A stretch of DNA of 64,000 bases from a bacterium (GTDB taxonomy: Bacteria; Chloroflexota; Anaerolineae; Caldilineales; Caldilineaceae), in NCBI GenBank assembly GCA_016124945.1, contig WGMT01000044.1, positions 62,001-126,000 on the forward strand, written 5' to 3'. The stretch's first letter is position 1, and each line of letters starts with the position of its first letter. The position numbers were made by a program, and so were the translations under genes. Below the pieces are notes generated by a model. It made no database searches. It saw nothing but the letters and a program-made list of their open reading frames with translations, and was not told where the DNA came from. Shown in pieces: positions 8,994 to 21,600 of this stretch.

Positions 8994-10724
8994 TTACTTT
9001 CCGTTCAGTATCGGTAGGAAGAGCATTTCCTGCATTTGCAACTGATTACCGATCTGGCCGCTGGTCACCGCGGGCAAGAAGCTGAACAGTTGACCAATCT
9101 CTTCCTGGGGCAACGGCGCTTCGTTGACTGTCGGCGAGTTGTCCACTGGGATAGCGGGCGTCATGCGTGTTGTCTTGGCCACACCTTCCAACGTGCCGTT
9201 GTCGTCGGTGTTGCCGATGCCACAGGTGTCTTGGACGCTGATTGAGAGGTGGTAATGGGCATCGGTGAAGCCTTCCACCTCGATCTGATAGCTACCAGTT
9301 TCGGTCGGCTGAACGTAGACACTGTCGTGGAGACCGGCGCCGTTGATGCTGAACCCTTGTAGCGAGCCATCGGGGCCCCATACATAGAGATCTGCGTCCA
9401 TATCGGCCTGTGCCGGTGTCAACTCGACACTTAGACATCTGCCCGCTTCAACTTCTTGTCGGTAGACACGGATTTCACCTGCTGCGACGTCATCTTCTTC
9501 TGGGATGTAATTCAGTCGGCGACCATCCGGCAGGTTAGAAATGTTGCCGGCTGCATCGGCGCCCCATGCTTGTAGATAACGGACACCCCCTTTGGGATGA
9601 AGTTCAAAGTCATCAGGCGTTGCGTCGTAGGGTAGCCAGCCTGTCCAGTTGACAGGGATCCAGCTTCCGTTGCCGCTGCCGATGCCGGTGTACCAGTGCA
9701 GTTCGACGTAGTAGACACGACTGGGGCCGGAGACCAACGCATTTGGATTGGCCGGATCAATGCCGTCTTCAAGCGTTGTGGTGAGCTGAACCTGTGATTG
9801 GTAGACTTCAAGTAGACCACCGTTGATCTGCAAGTTGGAAATAACGGGTGGGTAGCGGTCTTCCGTCTGTGGTATGGAAACTCTACGTTCGGTAACAATG
9901 AGGTTGTTGTCTTCGTTTGTTTCTGCCACTACCTGTGTTGGATCAATCACGGTAATGATCTTCACTCTGCCGTGGGTTTGTGGTGTCCATGCCACCATGC
10001 TGCTTGAAGCTGCCCCATTCGGGCTGATGCCTGGCACTGTCGCCCGGCCGATAAAGTTTTCGGGGGTGATACTGTCTTGATAGAAGTCCACATCAAACGG
10101 TCCTGTGCCGCCTTGCCCACCCAAGCGTTGTACTCTTACCGTCAACTTTGTCTCTTCCCCTGCCCACAATTGATTGGGCACGGTGCTCAGGTGATACGAT
10201 TCTGCATAAAGATCGTTTACGCTTTCTGCATCGAAAACTCGGTAAGCTTTTTCGAGTAACTGACGCTGGTCAGCATACGCAAGCACGAAGTCGTAATAGC
10301 CTGGCTTAAGCGGTAAACCGGTGCCCCTGGCTGGAATACGCGCAATCATCTTGGTGCTGTTGATCACCTGCGAGTAAATTGGAATCAACGGACGCTCTGT
10401 CTCGCCGGCAGCCGGCTGTTGGTTCGAAGAGTAGCGTAAGTAGAGCTGTCCTCCGTTGCGCAGGTTTCTACCATAAACGTTTACATAAACGACAACCGAA
10501 TTGACCCCTTGGGACGGTTCAATGTCGAGGAGTCCTGCCGGATTTGGCGCCGGCAATGGAGATAGGGGCGAAGATGTCGTGAGATTTGTTAGCCCGTAAG
10601 CCGTCGCCTCACCTGAGTTAGCCAGCCCAAAAACGGCGGCAATGGAGAGCGCAAAGATCAGTGCTAAGATCCACTTGATGTGCGCTGATGGTGAGATGGC
10701 CTCTTGCTCTGGGTAATGTTCCAT
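8994..10724 (-). CDS. secreted CARDB/PPC-domain surface protein
   Basis: This is a 576-residue exported protein. A hydrophobic signal-anchor lies at about residues 17-36. After a Pro/Ser linker come three beta-rich parts: a domain at about 60-165, a CARDB-like domain at about 175-285 containing the characteristic 'VAETNEDNN' turn, and a C-terminal pre-peptidase-like (PPC) domain at about 390-500 with 'DADLYVWGPDG' and 'GSYQIEVEG'. Family knowledge: CARDB is an adhesion fold and PPC domains are usually found on secreted enzymes, where they are often cleaved. No catalytic domain is present, so it is probably adhesive or structural. The C-terminus FLPIL resembles motifs in two other exoproteins here. 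AGGA lies upstream of ATG 10724. Confidence 0.75.
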   Translation of the reverse strand: MEHYPEQEAISPSAHIKWILALIFALSIAAVFGLANSGEATAYGLTNLTTSSPLSPLPAPNPAGLLDIEPSQGVNSVVVYVNVYGRNLRNGGQLYLRYSSNQQPAAGETERPLIPIYSQVINSTKMIARIPARGTGLPLKPGYYDFVLAYADQRQLLEKAYRVFDAESVNDLYAESYHLSTVPNQLWAGEETKLTVRVQRLGGQGGTGPFDVDFYQDSITPENFIGRATVPGISPNGAASSSMVAWTPQTHGRVKIITVIDPTQVVAETNEDNNLIVTERRVSIPQTEDRYPPVISNLQINGGLLEVYQSQVQLTTTLEDGIDPANPNALVSGPSRVYYVELHWYTGIGSGNGSWIPVNWTGWLPYDATPDDFELHPKGGVRYLQAWGADAAGNISNLPDGRRLNYIPEEDDVAAGEIRVYRQEVEAGRCLSVELTPAQADMDADLYVWGPDGSLQGFSINGAGLHDSVYVQPTETGSYQIEVEGFTDAHYHLSISVQDTCGIGNTDDNGTLEGVAKTTRMTPAIPVDNSPTVNEAPLPQEEIGQLFSFLPAVTSGQIGNQLQMQEMLFLPILNGK

Positions 10725-11058
10725 CTCTCTGTCCTTTCTGGTCCACAGTTCACGACACGTATATGGTCGCGTGCTAGGGGGGCTCTTTGTTTGACTGTGA
10801 AGGTTGACTTTGGTGTCGGTAATCCTCGTGTTTACATTTTACGGGGTTGTAAGCCAGATGCATCTGGGGTAATCGTCTCATCATCCAAGTAAGGGGGCTA
10901 GTTAAGGTAAATAGCGCTGTCTATGCGTTGTTCCCATTCTGTCAATTAACTGCTATGAACATAAGCCTTTTCTAGACAAAAAACGAACCATCTCAGAAGT
11001 GAGATGGTTCGTACTCTTCTATTCAAGTGTAAGAAGCTAGTTTTTGCGCTGTACCTGT
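10725..11058. other. 334-bp non-coding leader between two minus-strand genes
   Basis: The region contains the ribosome binding site of the secreted-protein gene at its left end and the terminator of the lipoprotein gene at its right end. Between them I see no ORF with a ribosome binding site, no tRNA-like structure and no riboswitch pattern I know. Confidence 0.5.
10983..11012 (-). terminator. terminator of the LivK-like lipoprotein gene
   Basis: ACGAACCATCTCA pairs perfectly with its complement around GAAG; read on the minus strand it is followed by TTTTTTG. It lies 46 bp after the lipoprotein stop. Confidence 0.85.
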
Positions 11059-12198
11059 CTATTGATCGACTTGCTGGAACTCGTTACCGTTCACCTGGTA
11101 GATCCAAATTCCTGGATCAATGAGATCGCCATTGTCGTTAAAGCGCAGATCGCCGAGCAATGTGGATACGGCATTTTCTCGGAGTGCGTTTGCAATGCGG
11201 GCCAACTCCAGTGAATCTGCCTTACGAATTCCTTCTGCAAGCACCTGCATGGCAACATATCCGTTAACCGAGTATGTGTCTGGATCTCGGTATTCCACAG
11301 CCTGGTACCCTTCGATCCACTGTGCATCGGCTACGTTCTGTGGGCTAGGTGCGAAGGCACTGACATACATCCCCTCCGCCGTGCCGTTGGATTCGTCGAT
11401 AGTCGCCGCCAGAAAAGCGCCGTCGCTGGCAAGCATCGGCAGTGTAATGCCTGCATCCACCAGCGCTGCGCGCAGGTAGGGGGCTTCGATTTCGTAGCCG
11501 GCGTAGAAGATGGCGTCTGCGTTGGCGCTGCTTATCTGCTGCACCACAGTGGTGTAGTCGCTCTGTCCTTCGGCCACTTCGATACGCAGTGCCTCTGTTG
11601 CGCCATGTTCGCCCAATCGCTGCGCCAAGGAAGCGGCCAGCCCCTTGCCATAATCGGTGTCGTTGTGGATCACAGCTACGGATGTCGCGCCCATGCGCTC
11701 AGCCAGGAATTGGGCATCGACAGCGGCCTGTACAGCATCATTGGCGTTGACGCGGAAGAAGTGTGTATGTCCGCGCTCAGTCAAACTCTGCTCTGACGCT
11801 GTGGGGGTGATCACCACCAGCCCGAGGTCGCCATAGAGATCGAGCGTGGCGTCGGTCTGTCCACTGTTCAGGTGACCGATAACGCCAACCACACGGTCGC
11901 CGCCGGCGATGGCGCTGCGGATCTCGTCCACATTTGCCACGGCCACGTCGCTGTCCGACTCATCGTCTAGCGGACGGACGACGACGCGGTACCCAAGCAG
12001 GCCACCACTGCGGTTAATCTGCTCGGCTGCTAAACGCACACCGCCTAGCACCGTCTGCCCGCCATTGGCCTGAAAGCCGCTCAACGGTACCGCCACATAA
12101 ACGATGACATCCCCGCGCGTCGGTCCACTGGCCTGGTTCGTACAGGCGGCGAGAATGAGAGGGATTATCGCAAGAATGAAAATGAAACGTTTGAGCAT
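11059..12198 (-). CDS. LivK-like (type I periplasmic binding) lipoprotein
   Basis: The protein has 379 residues. A lipoprotein signal ends in LILAAC with the lipidated Cys at position 19, so it should be anchored on the outer face of the membrane. The rest has the Peripla_BP_6 (leucine/isoleucine/valine-binding) fold features: 'VAVPLSGFQANGGQ' near residue 36, 'GGVRLAAEQIN', and 'GVIGHLNSGQT'. Family knowledge: these proteins bind amino acids or other small ligands for ABC importers or act as sensors. No permease or ATPase gene is next to it; instead it closes a run of membrane-anchored binding-like proteins. The gene is separated from the upstream coiled-coil gene only by a heptad-repeat hairpin and a ribosome binding site (AAGGAAAG). 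Confidence 0.85.
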   Translation of the reverse strand: MLKRFIFILAIIPLILAACTNQASGPTRGDVIVYVAVPLSGFQANGGQTVLGGVRLAAEQINRSGGLLGYRVVVRPLDDESDSDVAVANVDEIRSAIAGGDRVVGVIGHLNSGQTDATLDLYGDLGLVVITPTASEQSLTERGHTHFFRVNANDAVQAAVDAQFLAERMGATSVAVIHNDTDYGKGLAASLAQRLGEHGATEALRIEVAEGQSDYTTVVQQISSANADAIFYAGYEIEAPYLRAALVDAGITLPMLASDGAFLAATIDESNGTAEGMYVSAFAPSPQNVADAQWIEGYQAVEYRDPDTYSVNGYVAMQVLAEGIRKADSLELARIANALRENAVSTLLGDLRFNDNGDLIDPGIWIYQVNGNEFQQVDQ

Positions 12199-12213
12199 GG
12201 TCTTTCCTTGTGT

Positions 12214-12333
12214 GGTGACTGGTGATTGGTGATTGGTGATTGGTGATTTGAGTCTCGTCGAGGAGCTGGTCCCTACATTGGAAACAGTGGCTCAACAAGA
12301 CCCAATCACCAATCCCTAATCACCAATCACCAC
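12214..12333. repeat. GGTGATT heptad inverted-repeat element, copy 1
   Basis: Left arm 12214-12249 has five GGTGATT/GGTGACT units; right arm 12302-12333 has the inverted units AATCACC. The core of about 50 bp is similar to that of copy 2 (13186-13292): TCGTCGAG, then ACATTGGAA, then AAGA. The element begins one base from the stop codon of the 12334-13170 gene and ends just before the ribosome binding site of the lipoprotein gene, so it fills the intercistronic space. Confidence 0.85.
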
Positions 12334-13170
12334 CTATCCCAAACCTTCCGTCTGATAGTTATAAACCTCGTTGATGCTGTCCACCAGGTCGTTGAGGCGG
12401 TTGACCTGTTCCTGAATGTCGGCGCTGAGGCGTTCGGCCTTGCCACTGGCCACATCCTGGGCGTCGATGAGGCGCACCTGGCTGTAGATGGTGGCCAGTG
12501 CGGTGAGGCTCTGATCCATCTGCAACTGCGCCTGCCGCATGCGGGCGTCCAATGCCTGGAGTGCCGCCAATTGCTTTCGCTTTCCGTCGACGACTTGCTC
12601 GATCTGGCTCTTGGTTTCGGGGTTGCGTTCGGCGTTGACCCGGGCGATTAGTTGCTCGATTTCCTGGGGGACGTTCTGCCGTTCCTGGCGTAGCAGGCTG
12701 TCTTGGTTGTAGGCATCAAGGCGCAGCGCCAATTTGAAAACGTTGCTTACCCAGTCGCTTAACTGTTCGGCGGTGTTTTCCAGCCGATCTCGCATCAAAC
12801 CGGGGCGTTGCTGTTGCACTGCCTGCTCGATGCGCCGTTGGTATTCGAGACCGCGGTTAACTTCATCTCGTAGCTTTTGATCGCGGATCTGACGCGGGTC
12901 GAACTCTTCTTGCATCAGGTCTACCAAAATCTTGGCATTGGCATCGCGGTCGGTAAGGCTGGAGTAGACGATGACGGCTACGCCAATCATGCCCAGCAGC
13001 GCCCAACCCCAGAGTGGCCAACCCGGCACCGGCCGCGGATAAAGCACCGTCAACATGAGTGCGCCGGCGATCAGCACCGCATTTTCCCAGCGGAAGAAGG
13101 CATATTGCAGGAGCATGCTCTTGGCGCGTTCCTGGAGTTCGGTGCGGGTGGAGGAGGTGCTCATTGTCAT
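12334..13170 (-). CDS. two-TM protein with long cytoplasmic coiled coil
   Basis: The protein has 278 residues from ATG 13170, which is preceded by TAGGAA; longer starts would translate repeat DNA. Two hydrophobic segments lie at about residues 24-41 and 46-67. The remaining 210 residues are charged and helical with heptad spacing (Gln/Glu/Arg-rich, no Cys), predicted coiled coil. I do not recognise a named family; the architecture resembles membrane-tethered coiled-coil partners found beside PspA or TelA-like proteins, but this is only a resemblance. It is flanked on both sides by copies of the GGTGATT repeat element and sits between the VWA gene and the LivK-like lipoprotein gene on the same strand. 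Confidence 0.75.
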   Translation of the reverse strand: MTMSTSSTRTELQERAKSMLLQYAFFRWENAVLIAGALMLTVLYPRPVPGWPLWGWALLGMIGVAVIVYSSLTDRDANAKILVDLMQEEFDPRQIRDQKLRDEVNRGLEYQRRIEQAVQQQRPGLMRDRLENTAEQLSDWVSNVFKLALRLDAYNQDSLLRQERQNVPQEIEQLIARVNAERNPETKSQIEQVVDGKRKQLAALQALDARMRQAQLQMDQSLTALATIYSQVRLIDAQDVASGKAERLSADIQEQVNRLNDLVDSINEVYNYQTEGLG

Positions 13171-13185
13171 GGTATTCCTACCCGG

Positions 13186-13292
13186 GGTGACTGGTGATTG
13201 GTGATTGGTGATTGGGATCTTGTCGAGCAGCAGACCCGACATTGGAACCAATTTCTCGAAGAGATCCCAATCACCAATCACTAATCACCAAT
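13186..13292. repeat. GGTGATT heptad inverted-repeat element, copy 2
   Basis: Arms 13186-13216 and 13266-13292 are inverted (GGTGATT) units. The core resembles copy 1, including TGTCGAG and ACATTGGAA. The element begins six bases from the VWA gene stop codon and ends just before the ribosome binding site of the next gene. Confidence 0.85.
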
Positions 13293-13298
13293 CCCTCC

Positions 13299-15053
13299 CT
13301 AAAAGTACGTCGAGATGATCCGATACAGCTCTTCAATATCTGTCTCGTCGGCACGCCGGAATTGACCGTTGCCGTCACGGGCAATCTCTTCCATCAGTTC
13401 CGCTTCGGCGTCGCCGCCGAAGGCAATCGTAAAGATGACCACCGGCGTGTTGTTGCTGCGTAGGGCGTTGCGCAGATCGTCGATGTTGTAGTAGCTGTCG
13501 TTTTCCTGGCCGTCGGTCATGACCACGATGGCATTGATGGCCTCGGTGTCGGCCAACCGTTGTAGATCGTCGTTGGCCTGCCATACGGCGTCGATGAGGG
13601 CGGTGTTGCCGTAGGCCTCCATGCTGTCGACCAGTTCGCTCATTTGCGCCCGTCCACTTTGGTTGACGCTACGTAGCGGTTCAAAACGCTTGACGCCGGA
13701 GCCGAATTCCACAATCCCCACCTGATCGCGGTCACCCTGGATCTGGCTGATGAAGGATTGTAGCGCTGTTTTGGTGAGCGCCATCTTTTCGCCTTCCATG
13801 CTGCCACTGGTGTCCACCACCAGGTAGACGTTGGTGGGGCGCTTGGTGTACCACCAGACGTTCTGGATCACGTCCACAACCGTGGCCGACGGGATCTGCA
13901 GGGTGGTGGCGGGCTGCCGCCAGTCTACCGCATCGGTGTTGGCGAATGGACTGCCCTCGGCGTCCAGCGCAATGTCGAGATCGGCAGGACGATACCCGGC
14001 GTCGAGGAAGGCACGCTGGCTCTCGGCGCTGTTTAGAAACTCGGAAAACGCATTAAAGGTGCGACGTTGGTTGTTAGTGACGGGCAATCGATCCGTGCTG
14101 CCCAGTTCAAGCAATGCCAGCGGGTGATCCGTCCACAATGTGCCTTCGGCTGGGTAGATGGCCACCAACCGGTTTCCGCGGCGCTGTGTATTCCACTGGA
14201 TGACTGTCTGTTCCTGGGCTACAAAGGCGTCGAGGAAATCCTGCCCTTCCTCGGCCAGGCGCTCGATGATCACCTCTTCGCCTTCGCCGTAGAAGCGCAC
14301 AGTCGCTTCCACCGCGCGGACGTAGTCGAGCACGTCCTGACGGGTGGCGATCTCTTCGGTGAGTCCGCGGGTGAGGCCGGCGCCGGCGTAGAACTCGGCC
14401 AGTGTGGCTAGTAGGCCGGCGGCATGCTGTGTGCTGGGGTGATTCCACTTGAAATTCGGGTCTTCGGTGGCCTTGCGCTGAATCTCTCCCCAGCCCACCG
14501 GCTGATCGGGCCAGCCCAGATCGCGGGCTGTCCCTTCCCACGCCGCCAGGACAATGGGGCTGATGGCAAAGCGTACCGCTTCACCCACGCGACGGGGAGA
14601 AATGTCCCCGGCTTCGGCTTCCTGCATCTGCGCCCAGCGTTGGTCGATTTGATTGAGCCAGATCGAACTGTCCGGTGCGATGGCCTGGAAGCGGGGTTGC
14701 TCGAGGCTTTGTTCCACAATCTCTTCCGGCGTCAGCGGCGTAAGGACAACGCGCATCGTCTGGCCGTCGGGCGTCTGAAGTCCACGGCTGTTGAAGACTT
14801 CCACCCGGCTGGCCAGGGTTGGGGCCATGACGGGGGCCACTGCCAGTGTCAACTCGGCGCTGTTCGGATCCCAGGAGAAGCCCTCTTCCTCTGTGATTTC
14901 GGGCGAATCGCTTTGGAAAACGTTGAGGACCTGTTGCCCGATAGTGACGGCTGCCACACCACAAATGCAGGTGGCGAAGAGCAACACCCCAATACCGATA
15001 ACAATGACGCGCCAGTTTTGCGGACGCCGATTACGTGAACGTGAATTGCTCAT
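13299..15053 (-). CDS. membrane-anchored solute-binding-like plus VWA protein
   Basis: The protein has 584 residues from ATG 15053 (GAGG eight bases upstream). A single membrane segment lies at about residues 16-38. Residues 65-395 form a substrate-binding-protein-like (SBP_bac_11) domain related to the protein encoded immediately upstream. The C-terminal von Willebrand factor A domain has a complete metal-ion-dependent adhesion site: D414-x-S-x-S (DTSGS), T484 and D514. Family knowledge: VWA domains bind a partner protein through the bound divalent metal. The protein should face outward. With no transporter nearby, I infer a ligand-sensing or scaffold role. An upstream start at 15077 would overlap the preceding gene and is less likely. 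Confidence 0.85.
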   Translation of the reverse strand: MSNSRSRNRRPQNWRVIVIGIGVLLFATCICGVAAVTIGQQVLNVFQSDSPEITEEEGFSWDPNSAELTLAVAPVMAPTLASRVEVFNSRGLQTPDGQTMRVVLTPLTPEEIVEQSLEQPRFQAIAPDSSIWLNQIDQRWAQMQEAEAGDISPRRVGEAVRFAISPIVLAAWEGTARDLGWPDQPVGWGEIQRKATEDPNFKWNHPSTQHAAGLLATLAEFYAGAGLTRGLTEEIATRQDVLDYVRAVEATVRFYGEGEEVIIERLAEEGQDFLDAFVAQEQTVIQWNTQRRGNRLVAIYPAEGTLWTDHPLALLELGSTDRLPVTNNQRRTFNAFSEFLNSAESQRAFLDAGYRPADLDIALDAEGSPFANTDAVDWRQPATTLQIPSATVVDVIQNVWWYTKRPTNVYLVVDTSGSMEGEKMALTKTALQSFISQIQGDRDQVGIVEFGSGVKRFEPLRSVNQSGRAQMSELVDSMEAYGNTALIDAVWQANDDLQRLADTEAINAIVVMTDGQENDSYYNIDDLRNALRSNNTPVVIFTIAFGGDAEAELMEEIARDGNGQFRRADETDIEELYRIISTYF

Positions 15054-15063
15054 ATTGTGTGCC

Positions 15064-16320
15064 TCACTGGGCGACATTCAGGTCGTACCAACGCAGCAGC
15101 GCCAGCAGGACGTCCCGGTTGGGCGAACGCATGGCGGTGGTACGTGGCACAACCGGCTGGACACCCTGATCCGCCCATCTGACGAAGAGACTCTCGTCGT
15201 TGGCGGTGACGGCGACATCGGCGTTGGCCGGGCGTAGACCAAAGGCCAGGGCTTCTTGCTGCTGTGCTTCGTCGAGCAGGAAGCGTTGAAATTCCAGCGC
15301 AGCGTTCTTCTCCAGCGCACTTGTCTCCGGTCCTACCCAAACGGTGAAAGGGAAATCAAACCAGGTGACAAATTCGGGATAGTAGATGCGCAGCGGATCT
15401 TCCCAGCGGGTGAGGATGCCCTGCATGTTCTGCAACAGGTCGCTTTCGAGTAACTGGCCGCCGTCGCCTACGCTGTAGCCGAAGAGGGCGAAGTCTTCTG
15501 CGGTGTAGGAACTACCGCCGCTGATGTTGGTGACGGCGTTCATCAACTCGGCCAGCCATGCCTGGAATTCGGGATCCGTGATGTCCTCGACGCCGATGTC
15601 GGTGCGGTTGTAGTAAGCGCCGGCCGCTGCAATCATGGCGGCTAGACCGCCTACGTTTTTGCTTGGATCAGGAACGGCCAGTTTGAAGTAGCCCCAAGCC
15701 GGGTTGCCGCCTAATTCGGGCCAGCCACCAGGCGCAACGGCGGCATCGTGGATTGTTGACCAGTTGACGTCGCCGAACTCGTTTTCAAGCACTTCGGCGC
15801 GGCTGGCGTAGATGCCCCACGTAAAGAGACTGATGGCAATGGGGCGGGCGCGGTATTGACCGTCCGTTAGGAAGACATCGCGGCCCAACCGTTCTTTGTA
15901 GGCGGCGTTAGCCAGCTCCACAAGATAACGGCTGTCAGGAATCCATGCCGTGGGGAAGTCGCCCAGCGCGGCACGTTCTTCTTCGGTAAGGTCCTCGGGG
16001 CGAACGTTGGCTGGGAGTGCGCCAAAATCGTTGCGATCCCAGCGGCCCAGGGCCGTGAGCCCATCCATGGCGATAACCTCCACCGTCACCACAGAGCCTT
16101 CGACGGTGCGTTGGGCAGCGTTGAAGGCTTCGGCGGCGGCGCGCACCCAAGGTTCTACGGGCAGCGCCGTGATCACACGTACTGTCACCTCTTCGGGGCG
16201 GTCTACGGTGAGGGCGGTATCCACGTCCGTGCCGGTGACGCTACGCCAGATCAACGTGGCGGTCACGATGACCAGGGCAACGGCGATAATTGATACAAAG
16301 AGCCAGCGCGTTCGATTCAT
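15064..16320 (-). CDS. membrane-anchored solute-binding-like protein
   Basis: This 418-residue protein has an N-terminal membrane anchor at about residues 6-26, without a lipobox Cys, followed by a periplasmic binding-protein fold of the SBP_bac_11 (molybdate/iron-binding-like) type. It looks paralogous to the binding-like part of the next gene: both have a 'W..(I)..' segment followed by an aromatic-Gly-rich 'AGAYYN'/'AGAG' stretch at similar positions. The stop codon is ten bases before the start of the VWA gene, so the two are cotranscribed and probably form a pair. The ligand is unknown. Confidence 0.8.
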   Translation of the reverse strand: MNRTRWLFVSIIAVALVIVTATLIWRSVTGTDVDTALTVDRPEEVTVRVITALPVEPWVRAAAEAFNAAQRTVEGSVVTVEVIAMDGLTALGRWDRNDFGALPANVRPEDLTEEERAALGDFPTAWIPDSRYLVELANAAYKERLGRDVFLTDGQYRARPIAISLFTWGIYASRAEVLENEFGDVNWSTIHDAAVAPGGWPELGGNPAWGYFKLAVPDPSKNVGGLAAMIAAAGAYYNRTDIGVEDITDPEFQAWLAELMNAVTNISGGSSYTAEDFALFGYSVGDGGQLLESDLLQNMQGILTRWEDPLRIYYPEFVTWFDFPFTVWVGPETSALEKNAALEFQRFLLDEAQQQEALAFGLRPANADVAVTANDESLFVRWADQGVQPVVPRTTAMRSPNRDVLLALLRWYDLNVAQ

Positions 16321-16356
16321 AGGTCTTCTCGTTTTGTAGGCCGGAAACCTCGGTCG

Positions 16357-16384
16357 GGTAATGCGTAATGCGTGATGCGTAACT
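16357..16384. repeat. TAATGCG 7-bp tandem repeat
   Basis: Units TAATGCG, TAATGCG and TGATGCG followed by TAAC stand in the gap between the GNAT gene and the start of the solute-binding-like gene. Confidence 0.6.
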
Positions 16385-16435
16385 CAGAAGGTTCGCTCGG
16401 ATGATTTTGGGTTAGTCGATTGCTACTTGGTATTG

Positions 16436-16930
16436 TTAGGGTTCTGCTTTGGATAATGCCGGATCAGGGTCAAAGGGCAGTGGATCGGGCCAGGGTTCGG
16501 CGGCACGACGTTCCAATGAACGGTTTTCGACGTTGGGAATGCGGGTGAAGCCAAATTGTTCATACAAACCATGGGCGTCGCGGGTGAAAAGCATCCACTT
16601 GCGCACGAATTGCAGTTCGGGGTGTGCCAGCATTGTCTGCACCAACCATTTACCCAATCCGCGTCCCTGGTATGATTCCAAAACAAAGACGTCTGCCAAA
16701 TAGGCGATGGCTGTGAAATCGGTAATCACACGCGCATAGCCCACCTGATCTTCTCCAGTGTAGACGCCGAAACAAAGCGAATTTGTCGCCGCCCGTTCCA
16801 CCACGCCCCTCGGCACCCCTGGCGACCAGTACGAGCGCTGCAAATAGCCGTGGACCACGTCAAAATTAAGCCGAGCCGGGTCGGTGCTGATGATGAAACC
16901 GTCTCGTGTCACTTCAAAGAGTCTATTCAT
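16436..16930 (-). CDS. GNAT-family N-acetyltransferase
   Basis: The protein has 164 residues. The acetyl-CoA pyrophosphate-binding motif appears as ESYQGRGLGKWL (Q/RxxGxG/A type) at about residues 85-96, preceded by the beta-4 strand 'IAYLADVFVLE' and followed by the conserved 'YEQFGF' near residue 130. Family knowledge: transfer of an acetyl group from acetyl-CoA to an amine; the acceptor is not predictable. ATG 16930 is chosen because the earlier part of the frame runs through a REP-like hairpin. A TATAAT box ends seven bases upstream and no ribosome binding site is present, so the message is probably leaderless. Its own promoter suggests it is an insertion in the surrounding operon-like block. 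Confidence 0.88.
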   Translation of the reverse strand: MNRLFEVTRDGFIISTDPARLNFDVVHGYLQRSYWSPGVPRGVVERAATNSLCFGVYTGEDQVGYARVITDFTAIAYLADVFVLESYQGRGLGKWLVQTMLAHPELQFVRKWMLFTRDAHGLYEQFGFTRIPNVENRSLERRAAEPWPDPLPFDPDPALSKAEP

Positions 16931-16936
16931 CGGCGA

Positions 16937-16942
16937 ATTATA
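16937..16942 (-). promoter_or_regulatory. -10 box giving a leaderless GNAT transcript
   Basis: TATAAT on the minus strand is separated from ATG 16930 by six bases, so transcription should start at about the first base of the codon. The -35 region falls into the REP-like palindrome and shows no clear TTGACA. Confidence 0.6.
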
Positions 16943-16959
16943 TCGGAAATTGGTCGAGT

Positions 16960-17024
16960 CAGTGCCTGGCACGGGTAGACTTTGGTTCTTAACATCAAGA
17001 GATTCTACCCCGTGCCAGGCACTG
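16960..17024. repeat. REP-like palindrome, copy 2 (GTGCCWGGCAC family)
   Basis: CAGTGCCTGGCACGGGTAGA (16960-16979) pairs with 17004-17024, with a single extra C. The right side continues into GACGGG, as in copy 3. It directly abuts the GNAT promoter and lies upstream of it. Confidence 0.85.
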
Positions 17025-17057
17025 ACGGGGCGTCGTGGCAACTTGCCCACAGCCACG

Positions 17058-17408
17058 CTATTCCTCTTCCGTCACCGGCGGGATATCCACAGCGTCGACG
17101 CCCAGGCTCTGCATCGTCTCTGTAAAGGACTCGCCCAGTTCGAGCCGTATGTAGAGCGGTCGGGGTTCGTCGGGCAAGTAGAGAAAGATGTTCTGGCCTT
17201 GTTCCTGGATCAGGATGCGTTCAATTTCGCCGCGCTCGATACGGGCGGCGGCGTCTTGGGTGGTGATCACTTCGTCCTCTTGCGGGAGGATGCTTCCTGC
17301 CCAGTGGACCATCAGGGTGAATGCCAGCAGCAACGCGGCCAGCGCCAGGACGAAAATTACGACAAAGCGCTTGCTACTCATGCCGGTGAAACTGTCGATT
17401 TCTACCAT
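17058..17408 (-). CDS. small single-TM protein with FtsH-extracellular-like domain
   Basis: The protein has 116 residues; an internal ATG at residue 10 is an alternative start. A hydrophobic segment spans about residues 15-36. The remaining part contains 'AAARIERGEIERILI' followed by strands and 'GVDAVDIPP', which resembles the small domain between the first two membrane helices of the protease FtsH. There is no AAA+ ATPase or protease part and the gene ends naturally, so this would be a stand-alone version. Family knowledge: that domain in FtsH contacts regulators outside the cytoplasmic face. The resemblance is weak and should be treated as a suggestion. It lies between the pspA-like gene and the GNAT gene on the same strand. 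Confidence 0.6.
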   Translation of the reverse strand: MVEIDSFTGMSSKRFVVIFVLALAALLLAFTLMVHWAGSILPQEDEVITTQDAAARIERGEIERILIQEQGQNIFLYLPDEPRPLYIRLELGESFTETMQSLGVDAVDIPPVTEEE

Positions 17409-17478
17409 GTTGTTTGATTTCGTTTTGTGTAGCGCGTATACCAGTTTTGTCTATGAACCAACCATTGTTCGCCGGAAT

Positions 17479-17542
17479 GTTGGGTTATCACCAAGCCAGT
17501 TAAAGCTACATTGTCTGTGGCAAGACAAGGTGATAACCCAAC
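17479..17542. repeat. inverted repeat with GTTGGGTTATCACC arms
   Basis: GTTGGGTTATCACC (17479-17492) and its exact complement (17529-17542) enclose a 36-base loop. It lies between the PspA gene and the small FtsH-like gene, next to a 7-bp repeat tract. Confidence 0.8.
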
Positions 17543-17553
17543 CTACGAGCTTA

Positions 17554-17603
17554 ACGTTCGTCCGTCGTTCGTCGTTGGTCGTTCGTCGTTGGTCGTCCGT
17601 CGC
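17554..17603. repeat. GGTCGTC/CGTCGTT 7-bp tandem repeat, copy 1
   Basis: About seven imperfect 7-bp units of the type (C/G)GTCGT(T/C) end four bases from the PspA stop codon. The outer end AACGTTCGTCCGTCGT recurs, slightly altered, at 26478-26494. Confidence 0.75.
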
Positions 17604-17607
17604 CCGG

Positions 17608-18288
17608 CTACTCAGTTACGCCCAACTTCTTGCGCCGTTCGGCTAGCTGGTTGTTGATGGCGCTGCGGTCGAGGACACGGTCCATTTCTTCGTCGAGACT
17701 CTTGGCGCGCATTTCGCTGGCAGCAGAGGCCTTGTCTAGGCGGGCGTAGATGCTCTGTGCGATGCGGTTGATGTCGCTGTCGCCCACGCCCATGAGATCG
17801 TCTAGGCTCTTGATGGCTTTGACGGTGGTCTCTTTGCTCTTGGCCAGTTCGAGTAGGGCCACCAGTTCCTCGCGCTCCTGTTTCATGGTCTGCAAGCGAG
17901 CTTCGAGCTTCACCTTGGCGCTCAGCAACTTGTCGAATTCATCTTTCTGGCGGACCAATTGCTCCTGGTAGGTGGCAACCAAACGTTGCGTACTGTTGAG
18001 CCTGCTCTGCATGGCGGCGGCCAGAGCTTCGTTGCCTTCAACCAGGAAGGCGTCAATAGCCTTGTCCTGTTCGTCGGCCTTCTGCTCAAACTCGTGTACC
18101 TTGCGCTGAATCGAGCGGACTTCACCACCGATGGTTGCGGCGGCGTCTTCAAGATCGGCCAGGTTGTTCTCTACCTGGCGAATGTACTGGTCGATGACGG
18201 CGGGGCTGTTGCTCTGCAACGCCTGGTCGATGATGCTGTGTAGGTTGGCCGAAATCAGTGTTGAGACTTTTTCGAGAAGCGAAGCCAT
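17608..18288 (-). CDS. pspA: PspA/IM30-family membrane-stress protein
   Basis: The protein has 226 residues, the normal length. It is almost entirely coiled coil, with the PspA/IM30 pattern: an N-terminal amphipathic helix, then 'AVIDQYIRQVENNLADLEDAAA' region and long Lys/Glu/Gln-rich helices, ending in a short Arg/Lys tail. AGGAGG lies directly upstream of ATG 18288. Family knowledge: PspA assembles into ESCRT-III-like rods or rings on damaged membranes and, in some bacteria, holds an enhancer-binding protein. No PspF, PspB or PspC is visible here. Its position at the head of a run of membrane-anchored proteins supports an envelope-stress function for that run. Confidence 0.92.
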   Translation of the reverse strand: MASLLEKVSTLISANLHSIIDQALQSNSPAVIDQYIRQVENNLADLEDAAATIGGEVRSIQRKVHEFEQKADEQDKAIDAFLVEGNEALAAAMQSRLNSTQRLVATYQEQLVRQKDEFDKLLSAKVKLEARLQTMKQEREELVALLELAKSKETTVKAIKSLDDLMGVGDSDINRIAQSIYARLDKASAASEMRAKSLDEEMDRVLDRSAINNQLAERRKKLGVTE

Positions 18289-18622: not shown

Positions 18623-21600
18623 TCATTCTTTCGCCATCGCCTCTGCCACTATCTGCAAAATCGCCGGCACGTCGTCGCGGAGACCGCTGCTGCGGAATCC
18701 CATGATCTGGAGGAGATCGTCTTCGCTGCTGGGGGCGGTTTGTGAGATGGTTTTGAGCAAGCCATTGGCGGCAACCAGGTAAGGTTTGCCTCGCTCACGC
18801 ACTGCAATCTTCTGACGAAGTTCCTGCATTTTCATGTAGATGCGTCGTTCGGCTTGCGCCGAGACAGCGCGGGCGGCAACTGCTGCTTGTTTACGCTCGG
18901 CGGTGATGCCTTCGGCATCTTCTCTGGCTTTTTCCTCGCGTTGGGTTGTAAGGAGCACTTCGTCGTCCTCACCCGCAGGGGTAAGTTTGATAAGATCGAG
19001 GATCACATTGCCATAACGTTCCAGCCGTTGCGCACCCATGCCGGACATCTGCGCCAACTCTTCCATCGACTGTGGGTGCCCTTCGGCGATACGGAACATG
19101 AGATCGTTGCCCATGACCACGTAGGTGGGCACACCATGTTCATCTGCTGTACGCCGACGCCAGTTGTAGAGCGCCTTTTGCAGCGCTGTGTACTTTTCGC
19201 CTTCAGGCTTCGCCTCGGCTTCGCCCTCCACTACTTCGGGGGCGGCGCCGGTTGGATCGGCCAGATTCGGGTGTTCGGCCAACCATGCCTCAGCCACGGT
19301 ACGTCCTTTAAGCGTCGGCGCCAGGACAGGATAGCCGCTGCGTTCGTACTGGCGCAGCATCTTCTGGTTCACCAACTCGTCGATGAATTCGATTACTGTG
19401 CTTTCGCCCAACGCGATTAGGCGGCCATGATGGCGGCATTCATTGGCCGCTACCGGCGCGCGCAGGCTGCCGACCAAAATGCGTGCCAGCCCGCCACGAC
19501 CCACCGGCTTGGGCGAACTGACCAGACAATCGAGGATCATCGGCTCGATGTCGGCGTCGTCGGGGATGGGGTGATCCGGGCGGTCGAAGTGTGGAATTTC
19601 GGGGCGGATGCCGGTACAATTGTCGCACACGTCGCACTTGGTACGCGGTGGGCTGCCGAAGTGGGCGCTGATGAAACCATGCCGGCAGCTTTCCGCCGTG
19701 GCATAGCCCACTACATCGTCGATGCGCCGTTGCGAAAGCGCCTGCGACTGGCCAATCAGCAATTCCAGCCGTTCGCGTAGGTCGGCGGCGCGGTGGGGCA
19801 TGTTGATCGACATCTCGCGCTTGCTGCCGCGCACCGAAAACACACCCGCCGACTGCCACGCCAGCAAGCGCTGTTCCGTCTCCAGCACCGGCCAATCCAT
19901 GCCTTCTGCAATCGACTCGGTGGTGAATGTGCTTTTGCCTTTGGGACGTAAATTTAATTTGCGCAACAATCGCGCCAACTCAGGATCGGCATCGCTCAAC
20001 TTGCGCACCGTTCCTTCTTTGCCCACATAGGAAATCTCTACTTCGCGGGGCAGATCGAAGCTGCGTGTCAACAGGCCAGCGCGTTCTAGCAAACTCACGG
20101 CCACGCGCACTTCCGTCTCATCGGCGTTGAGGACCTGTTCCAGCCGGTAGGTGTTGACTGTGCCTTCGGCGCCGGTGAGCGCATCTGGGTCGAATTCTCC
20201 GCTGTCTGCAGCGGCGTTAGGCGCTTCTGCCAGAGAGGAAACACCTAATTGTGTTGCCACCGCGGCGTAGACCTTCTCTAAGAATGCAAGATCGTACTCA
20301 TCCGCCTTTGCCCAGCGCCGCAGGTTGGCCCAGTCGTTTCCACTGTAGAAGAGGACACATTGGGCCGGTTTGCCATCACGCCCGGCGCGGCCGGCTTCCT
20401 GGTAGTAGGCGGCCAGGCTGCGCGGCGGGTGAAAGTGCACGATAAAACGGATGTCGGATTTGTCGATGCCCATGCCGAAGGCCACCGTTGCCACCACCAC
20501 GCGCGTCTTGTTTGCCATGAAGCGGTCCTGTACCGCGCCACGATCACTGAGCCCGGCGTGATAGGCTTCGGCAGAGATACCTTCTTGACGCAATGTCAGA
20601 GCAATGGCTTCACACTTGCGTCGCGAATTGGCGTAAACGATGCCGCTGCCGTCGTTTTCCTTCACAAATTTGAGCAGCGCCGCCATTTTTTCTTCGTCGT
20701 TGAGGAACTTGATAGCCGACAGGTGCAGATTGGAGCGAAAAATGTCGAGAGAGACGACCTGTGGACGTTTGTGTGCTCGCTCTGACAGGGTGGCGTCGTT
20801 GCTCAGGTTGTCGAGGATCTCGTCGCGCACGCGGGGCGGCGCGGTGGCGGTCATGGCCAGCGCGGGTGGGTTGTCCAATTCCTCGCGCGCCTCTTGAATA
20901 AAGAGATAGTCGGGGCGGAAGTCGTGGCCCCAAAGGCTCACACAGTGGGCTTCGTCCACAACAAAGAGGCTGAGGCCGGCGTCGCGCAGTGCCCGTAAGA
21001 AAGGACGCTGCCGCAGCCGTTCGGGCGCTGCGTAAATTAGTTTGTATTTGCCCTGGGCTACGCCTTCGAGCCGTTCCTGCATTTCGGCGTCGGTGAGGGT
21101 GCTATTGATGAAGGTTGCCTTGGCCTGGGCAGCGGCGGGCAGACCTTCCACTTGATCTTTCATGAGGGCGATGAGTGGACTGATCACCAGGGTGGCTTTG
21201 GGTAGGACGAGCCCCGGCAGTTGGTAGCAGAGCGATTTGCCTGCGCCGGTAGGCATGACGGCCAGCACCGAATCGCCGCGCAAAATCGAGGCGATGATCT
21301 CCATCTGTCCTTGGCGGAGATTGGTGAAGCCGAAGTTGCGGATGGCGGCCAGTTTTACTTCGCGCTCTTCTTCTCTACTGACTGTAATCCGCTCGGGGCC
21401 GCTGAGCGCGTTGTAAATGTGATCAATATCGCCGCCGCCTTCAACCAGGCCGATAATGGGCTGCATGGCGGTCTTGAGCGCATCTTCGGCGAGGATGCGC
21501 TGCCGTTCCAATTCCAGGCCGGCGGCGTCGGCACTCTGGCTGTTGCCCAACATCTGGTGGATCCCCTGCAAGCCGCGCAGGAGGTCTGCGTCGGTGCCGG

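Follow-up and report, generated by a model that had tools for sequence, protein, structure and literature searches.

Genes and features of the locus

The host genome (G000, 8.7 Mb) belongs to the Chloroflexota and has members of the Caldilineaceae as its closest named relatives. Within the window, by which we mean the whole stretch of 64,000 nucleotides that was analysed, the minus strand carries seven ORFs, all of which are present as described before; they were scanned for Pfam and NCBIfam domains (Table 1). As the original prediction had it, neither an ABC permease nor an ABC ATPase is among them. A CARDB and PPC surface protein, kept in few near relatives, is encoded downstream (window 8994-10724).

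Table 1. Genes and sequence features of the locus, in window coordinates
Feature	Position	Strand	Basis
PspA/IM30 (ESCRT-III family), core gene 1	17608..18288	-	Pfam PF04012, E 7e-19
Stand-alone FtsH-extracellular-like protein, accessory	17058..17408	-	one TM segment and FtsH N-terminal domain, without AAA/protease
GNAT acetyltransferase, lineage-specific insertion outside the module	16436..16930	-	Pfam, E 7e-13
SBP, membrane-anchored type-2 substrate-binding protein, core gene 2	15064..16320	-	TM segment, structure match
SBP-VWA, membrane-anchored, complete MIDAS, core gene 3	13299..15053	-	Pfam; TM 16-34
CC2TM, two-TM hairpin and ~200-residue helical domain (predicted cytoplasmic), core gene 4	12334..13170	-	AlphaFold2, alignment
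LivK-like type-1 periplasmic-binding lipoprotein, core gene 5	11059..12198	-	Pfam PF13458, E 2e-45; lipobox LAAC
Intrinsic-terminator-like hairpin 3' of the LivK-like gene	10983..11012	-	13-pair stem, then TTTTTGTCTA on the minus strand
Inverted repeat of TGATTGG heptamers between SBP-VWA and CC2TM	13184..13298		44-nt arms, 86% complementary
Second TGATTGG-repeat copy between CC2TM and the LivK-like gene	12212..12333		32-nt arms, 91% complementary

The Pfam match of the SBP is weak (SBP_bac_8, E 9e-4). Its predicted structure, a mediocre model with a pLDDT of 73, matches the type-2 substrate-binding fold with a best E of 4e-6, and at a median identity of 66% it is the most conserved of the five core genes. 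SBP-VWA, whose ATG (15053) lies 10 bases from the SBP stop codon as noted before, combines an SBP_bac_11 domain with a VWA domain (E 2e-10 and 1e-21, respectively). The complete MIDAS motif (DxSxS, T, D) that had been claimed for the latter is indeed there, with D415, S417, S419, T485 and D515, as numbered in the aligned row, invariant in 35 sequences. Both proteins have one N-terminal TM segment, and these anchors, together with the lipobox of the LivK-like protein, suggest that all three sit outside the membrane. In the small FtsH-extracellular-like protein, Pfam alone gave FtsH_ext at an E of 0.031; a profile made from ten relatives then matched the N-terminal domains of two bona fide FtsH proteins encoded in G000 (with the search space fixed at 20,000, E 2.5e-10 and 1.4e-8), by which the earlier assignment is upheld. 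Comparison of this domain with the sequences in the PDB gave no match.

The AlphaFold2 model of CC2TM is all-helical with a mean pLDDT of 85. The protein belongs to no Pfam or NCBIfam family, and a search of its fold against the PDB returned nothing below an E of 0.06, only scattered helical proteins. Hydropathy shows one strongly hydrophobic segment only in the window's CC2TM, the first TM segment being taken from the model and the alignment; from the count of two TM segments, the helical part is predicted to be cytoplasmic. CC2TM was also considered as a homologue of PspA, and the profile comparison was negative.

The hairpin that follows the LivK-like gene is likely the end of the operon, to judge from its sequence, although a scan of terminator-like hairpins gave an overall number no higher than chance. 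The TGATTGG heptamer pattern has 355 matches in the genome (182 forward and 173 reverse) and none in a reversed control; the inverted repeats made of it are a dispersed genomic repeat and are not thought to be functional. A search for structured RNA in the region gave sub-threshold matches only, which fell on the repeat hairpins. Whether the genes share a single transcript is uncertain, since the gaps between PspA and SBP are often long (median of 258 bp; 300 bp or less in 35 of 60) and two hairpin repeats split the operon of the window.

Conservation of a five-gene core

The order PspA, SBP, SBP-VWA, CC2TM, LivK, on one strand, recurs in about 25 families of Anaerolineae, Caldilineae and Thermoflexales, as surveyed in 40 loci from a genome survey and 80 named loci. 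Recurrence of both order and strand in dozens of genomes argues that the arrangement is not due to chance. Unlike these five genes, the upstream RecQ gene and the downstream CARDB gene track near relatives only. The FtsH-like gene is confined to the window's own subclade, and a GNAT gene, of 57% identity, occupies the same place in a single further relative (L075/L034); thus both are extras, and the conserved unit is five genes, fewer than the seven of the original prediction, from which FtsH-like and GNAT have to be struck out. The same distribution agrees with the earlier suspicion that the GNAT gene is an insertion. Its supposed own promoter found no support, promoter-like sites being no commoner than chance. 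A perfect 18-nt inverted repeat (GTCAGTGCCTGGCACGGG), possibly an insertion scar, lies 5' of the GNAT gene (window 16958-17026).

The PspA of the window was the single match in a genome-wide search of G000 and is therefore the sole PspA of this genome. Its identity ranges from 51 to 89% across the 33 loci holding all five genes, and seven loci have a tandem pair of PspA genes inside the operon. A STAND-like NTPase, possibly a regulator of the operon, is encoded 5' of PspA in L047 (4891-6306) and in eight other loci; in L047, the sole one scanned, its C-terminal end is a transcription-regulator domain.

CC2TM is kept in 79 loci, and a homologue follows SBP and SBP-VWA in other Chloroflexota families (E 3.5e-13). 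In one genus, all eight of eight genomes have kept SBP and SBP-VWA, while PspA and CC2TM are both absent from the whole assembly; in G011, PspA and CC2TM are kept without SBP, their stop and start codons overlapping as ATGA; and in G055 the two genes adjoin each other away from the SBP genes. PspA and CC2TM are thus genomically coupled. PspA occurs in 36 of the 45 genomes with SBP and in one of the 16 without it (Fisher p 2e-7, kinship ignored), and in G006 and G013 it is missing only where the contig stops within the block. As SBP and SBP-VWA persist in a genus that has neither PspA nor CC2TM, the putative receptor can do without these two. In the loci of that genus (L059-L067), the gene preceding SBP encodes a small TM protein whose tail resembles a zinc ribbon, and relatives of it adjoin the FtsH-like gene in L032 and L038.

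Kinase-linked relatives and a proposed envelope sensor

In one family of another class of Chloroflexota, the SBP partner is the C-terminal part of a zinc-ribbon, Ser/Thr kinase and TM protein. Seven such loci were collected (L154, L155, L156, L169, L185, L186 and L187), of which L154 and L169 were submitted to Pfam. The glycine loop, the catalytic lysine and DFG are present in all seven kinases, FRD(M/L)KPSN was read in two, and SBP-VWA adjoins the fusion gene in every locus except L186, where the contig ends. Fusion to a transmembrane kinase places the SBP as the ectodomain of a receptor, and this supports the idea of external sensing that the original prediction had put forward.

Five loci of Anaerolineae (L093, L095, L098, L104 and L105) lack PspA. 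WD40 proteins are encoded upstream there and, where the contig reaches and the genes were tested, a Ser/Thr kinase, PP2C and LRR proteins as well; by Pfam, the kinase is present in L093 and L095, while PP2C is present in L095 and L105. In the tree, the SBP-VWAs of the PspA-less loci form one supported clade, to which L100, with its upstream region unassembled, was joined by relationship. Since this clade is nested among the PspA-linked SBP-VWAs, the kinase/PP2C/WD40/LRR cassette has replaced PspA, and has done so once.

Our preferred reading, which we hold to be fairly probable, is a transmembrane envelope sensor where SBP, SBP-VWA and the LivK-like protein form a receptor outside the cell that signals through CC2TM to PspA. 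The anchored SBP would bind, outside the membrane, either some conserved ligand or a component of the envelope and would pair with the anchored SBP-VWA, probably by the MIDAS face of the VWA domain, while the LivK-like lipoprotein may supply a second ligand or compete for it. CC2TM would relay the state of the receptor over the membrane to its own cytoplasmic helical domain, which could in turn recruit or release the only PspA of the cell and so lead to PspA assembly on the membrane. In the relatives discussed above, the same outside module would drive the kinase/PP2C cassette instead. Counting against this reading are the often long gap between PspA and SBP and the hairpin repeats within the operon, the genus that has SBP and SBP-VWA but neither PspA nor CC2TM, the single strongly hydrophobic segment of CC2TM and the mediocre model of the SBP.

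Alternative readings and known systems

Related genes are also found with TelA. Plasmids of Burkholderiales (Variovorax and Sphaerotilus) carry together a protein resembling an anchored SBP, assigned from layout and sequence only as it has no Pfam match, TelA, SBP-VWA and a two-TM protein. In G006 (locus L181), of the window's own family, an SBP-VWA gene lies between those of TelA and of a two-TM protein, the latter protein being 39% identical to that of Sphaerotilus. G008 (L182), of the same family, has TelA with a two-TM protein. Moreover, SBP_bac_11 is the ModA-like family. Perhaps, then, the locus serves against stress by metals or oxyanions in the manner of the tellurite-resistance systems (TelA, TerY-P), where the SBPs would bind a metal or oxyanion and PspA would replace TelA as the membrane-protecting output. 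The combination of kinase, PP2C and VWA in the PspA-less loci also recalls TerY-P (PMC11090510). Yet the TelA-linked SBP-VWAs make up a deep, separate branch of the SBP-VWA tree, and a possible homology of CC2TM to the two-TM protein in the TelA operons was examined and none could be detected, which makes the resemblance one of arrangement. TelA (PF05816), considered as a hidden partner, is absent from G000 as well. We therefore regard this explanation as unlikely, though it deserves to be kept in sight.

It could also be argued that the binding proteins serve an ABC importer with its permease and ATPase encoded at another place, PspA being a mere neighbour. SBP, SBP-VWA and LivK do have transporter-type binding folds, and orphan SBPs exist in general. 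Nevertheless, an ABC ATPase signature was found near only four of the 78 named loci, each time 5.8-8 kb from SBP and never in the module, and among the 38 loci of the genome survey the only ABC ATPase within 5 kb is that of L047, where it lies with an exporter-like membrane protein immediately 5' of PspA. Homologues of the SBP and SBP-VWA pair are thus not usually found beside ABC permeases, and the earlier view that uptake is unlikely is supported. While the fold is like that of importer SBPs of the ModA, sulfate or sugar type, the SBP here has a TM anchor, is fused to kinases elsewhere and comes without permease or ATPase, and a fused VWA domain is no feature of importers. The importer explanation is accordingly improbable. 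A role in quality control or assembly of membrane proteins, with VWA and PspA (and the FtsH-like domain) in a chaperone-type complex that would insert or repair membrane proteins and have the SBPs as scaffold instead of sensors, is very hard to credit, for although VWA domains frequently work together with ATPases of the chaperone type and the FtsH-extracellular-like gene is confirmed, that gene is limited to one subclade, the core has no AAA+ protein, and the SBP is strongly conserved and kinase-fused elsewhere.

Returning to the envelope sensor, a broader form of it may be put forward, tentatively. The extracytoplasmic pair of SBP and SBP-VWA could be a plug-in sensor, and as such a new class of bacterial receptor, with exchangeable cytoplasmic outputs (PspA, kinase/PP2C and TelA), such that in Anaerolineae an external ligand directly controls a bacterial ESCRT-III protein. 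Beyond the classic Psp and Lia systems, little is known of how PspA senses trouble. If the proposed reading is true, a binding-protein receptor wired to the sole PspA of a cell would make external control of PspA directly testable, while PspA, TelA and kinase/phosphatase switches would be alternative outputs of related sensors. It would also give a clue to the role of TelA and of the unexplained proteins that are often annotated as “substrate-binding and VWA domain-containing”.

With the PSP and Lia systems, the locus shares PspA as a cytoplasmic effector (PF04012 is over its cut-off) and an adjoining gene for a membrane partner. The input differs, being here a putative substrate-binding/VWA complex, and none of PspB/C/F, LiaF, LiaRS or Toastrack was found among the seven genes with Pfam and NCBIfam. 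The main text of a 2024 survey of PSP systems contains no VWA or von Willebrand, and the PspA operon with a solute-binding protein in that text has an ABC ATPase and a permease as well (PMC11237479). TerY-P, composed of VWA, PP2C and Ser/Thr kinase, has in common with the locus a VWA domain with an intact MIDAS, and in the clade of L093, L095 and L105 a kinase and PP2C adjoin the MIDAS VWA protein; by Pfam, the window's module has neither Ser/Thr kinase nor PP2C. In contrast to TerY-P, the VWA domain is here predicted to be extracytoplasmic and is fused to an SBP, and WD40, LRR, SBP, CC2TM and LivK are additional. As for MoxR-VWA systems, where the partner is a MoxR-type AAA+ ATPase, Pfam and NCBIfam gave no AAA+ protein among the seven genes of the window. 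An anchored SBP, SBP-VWA, a two-TM helical protein and a cytoplasmic helical protein are common to the locus and the TelA operons, the differences being PspA in place of TelA, the presence of LivK, and the SBP-VWA branch and two-TM protein already described.

NCBI has already named the SBP-VWA architecture “substrate-binding and VWA domain-containing protein”. TerY-P and the TelA systems are known as well. The five-gene block is apparently undescribed; in agreement with the original prediction, no system with this gene set was found in the open literature searched. That related blocks are wired to kinases or to TelA suggests a widespread kind of envelope sensor.
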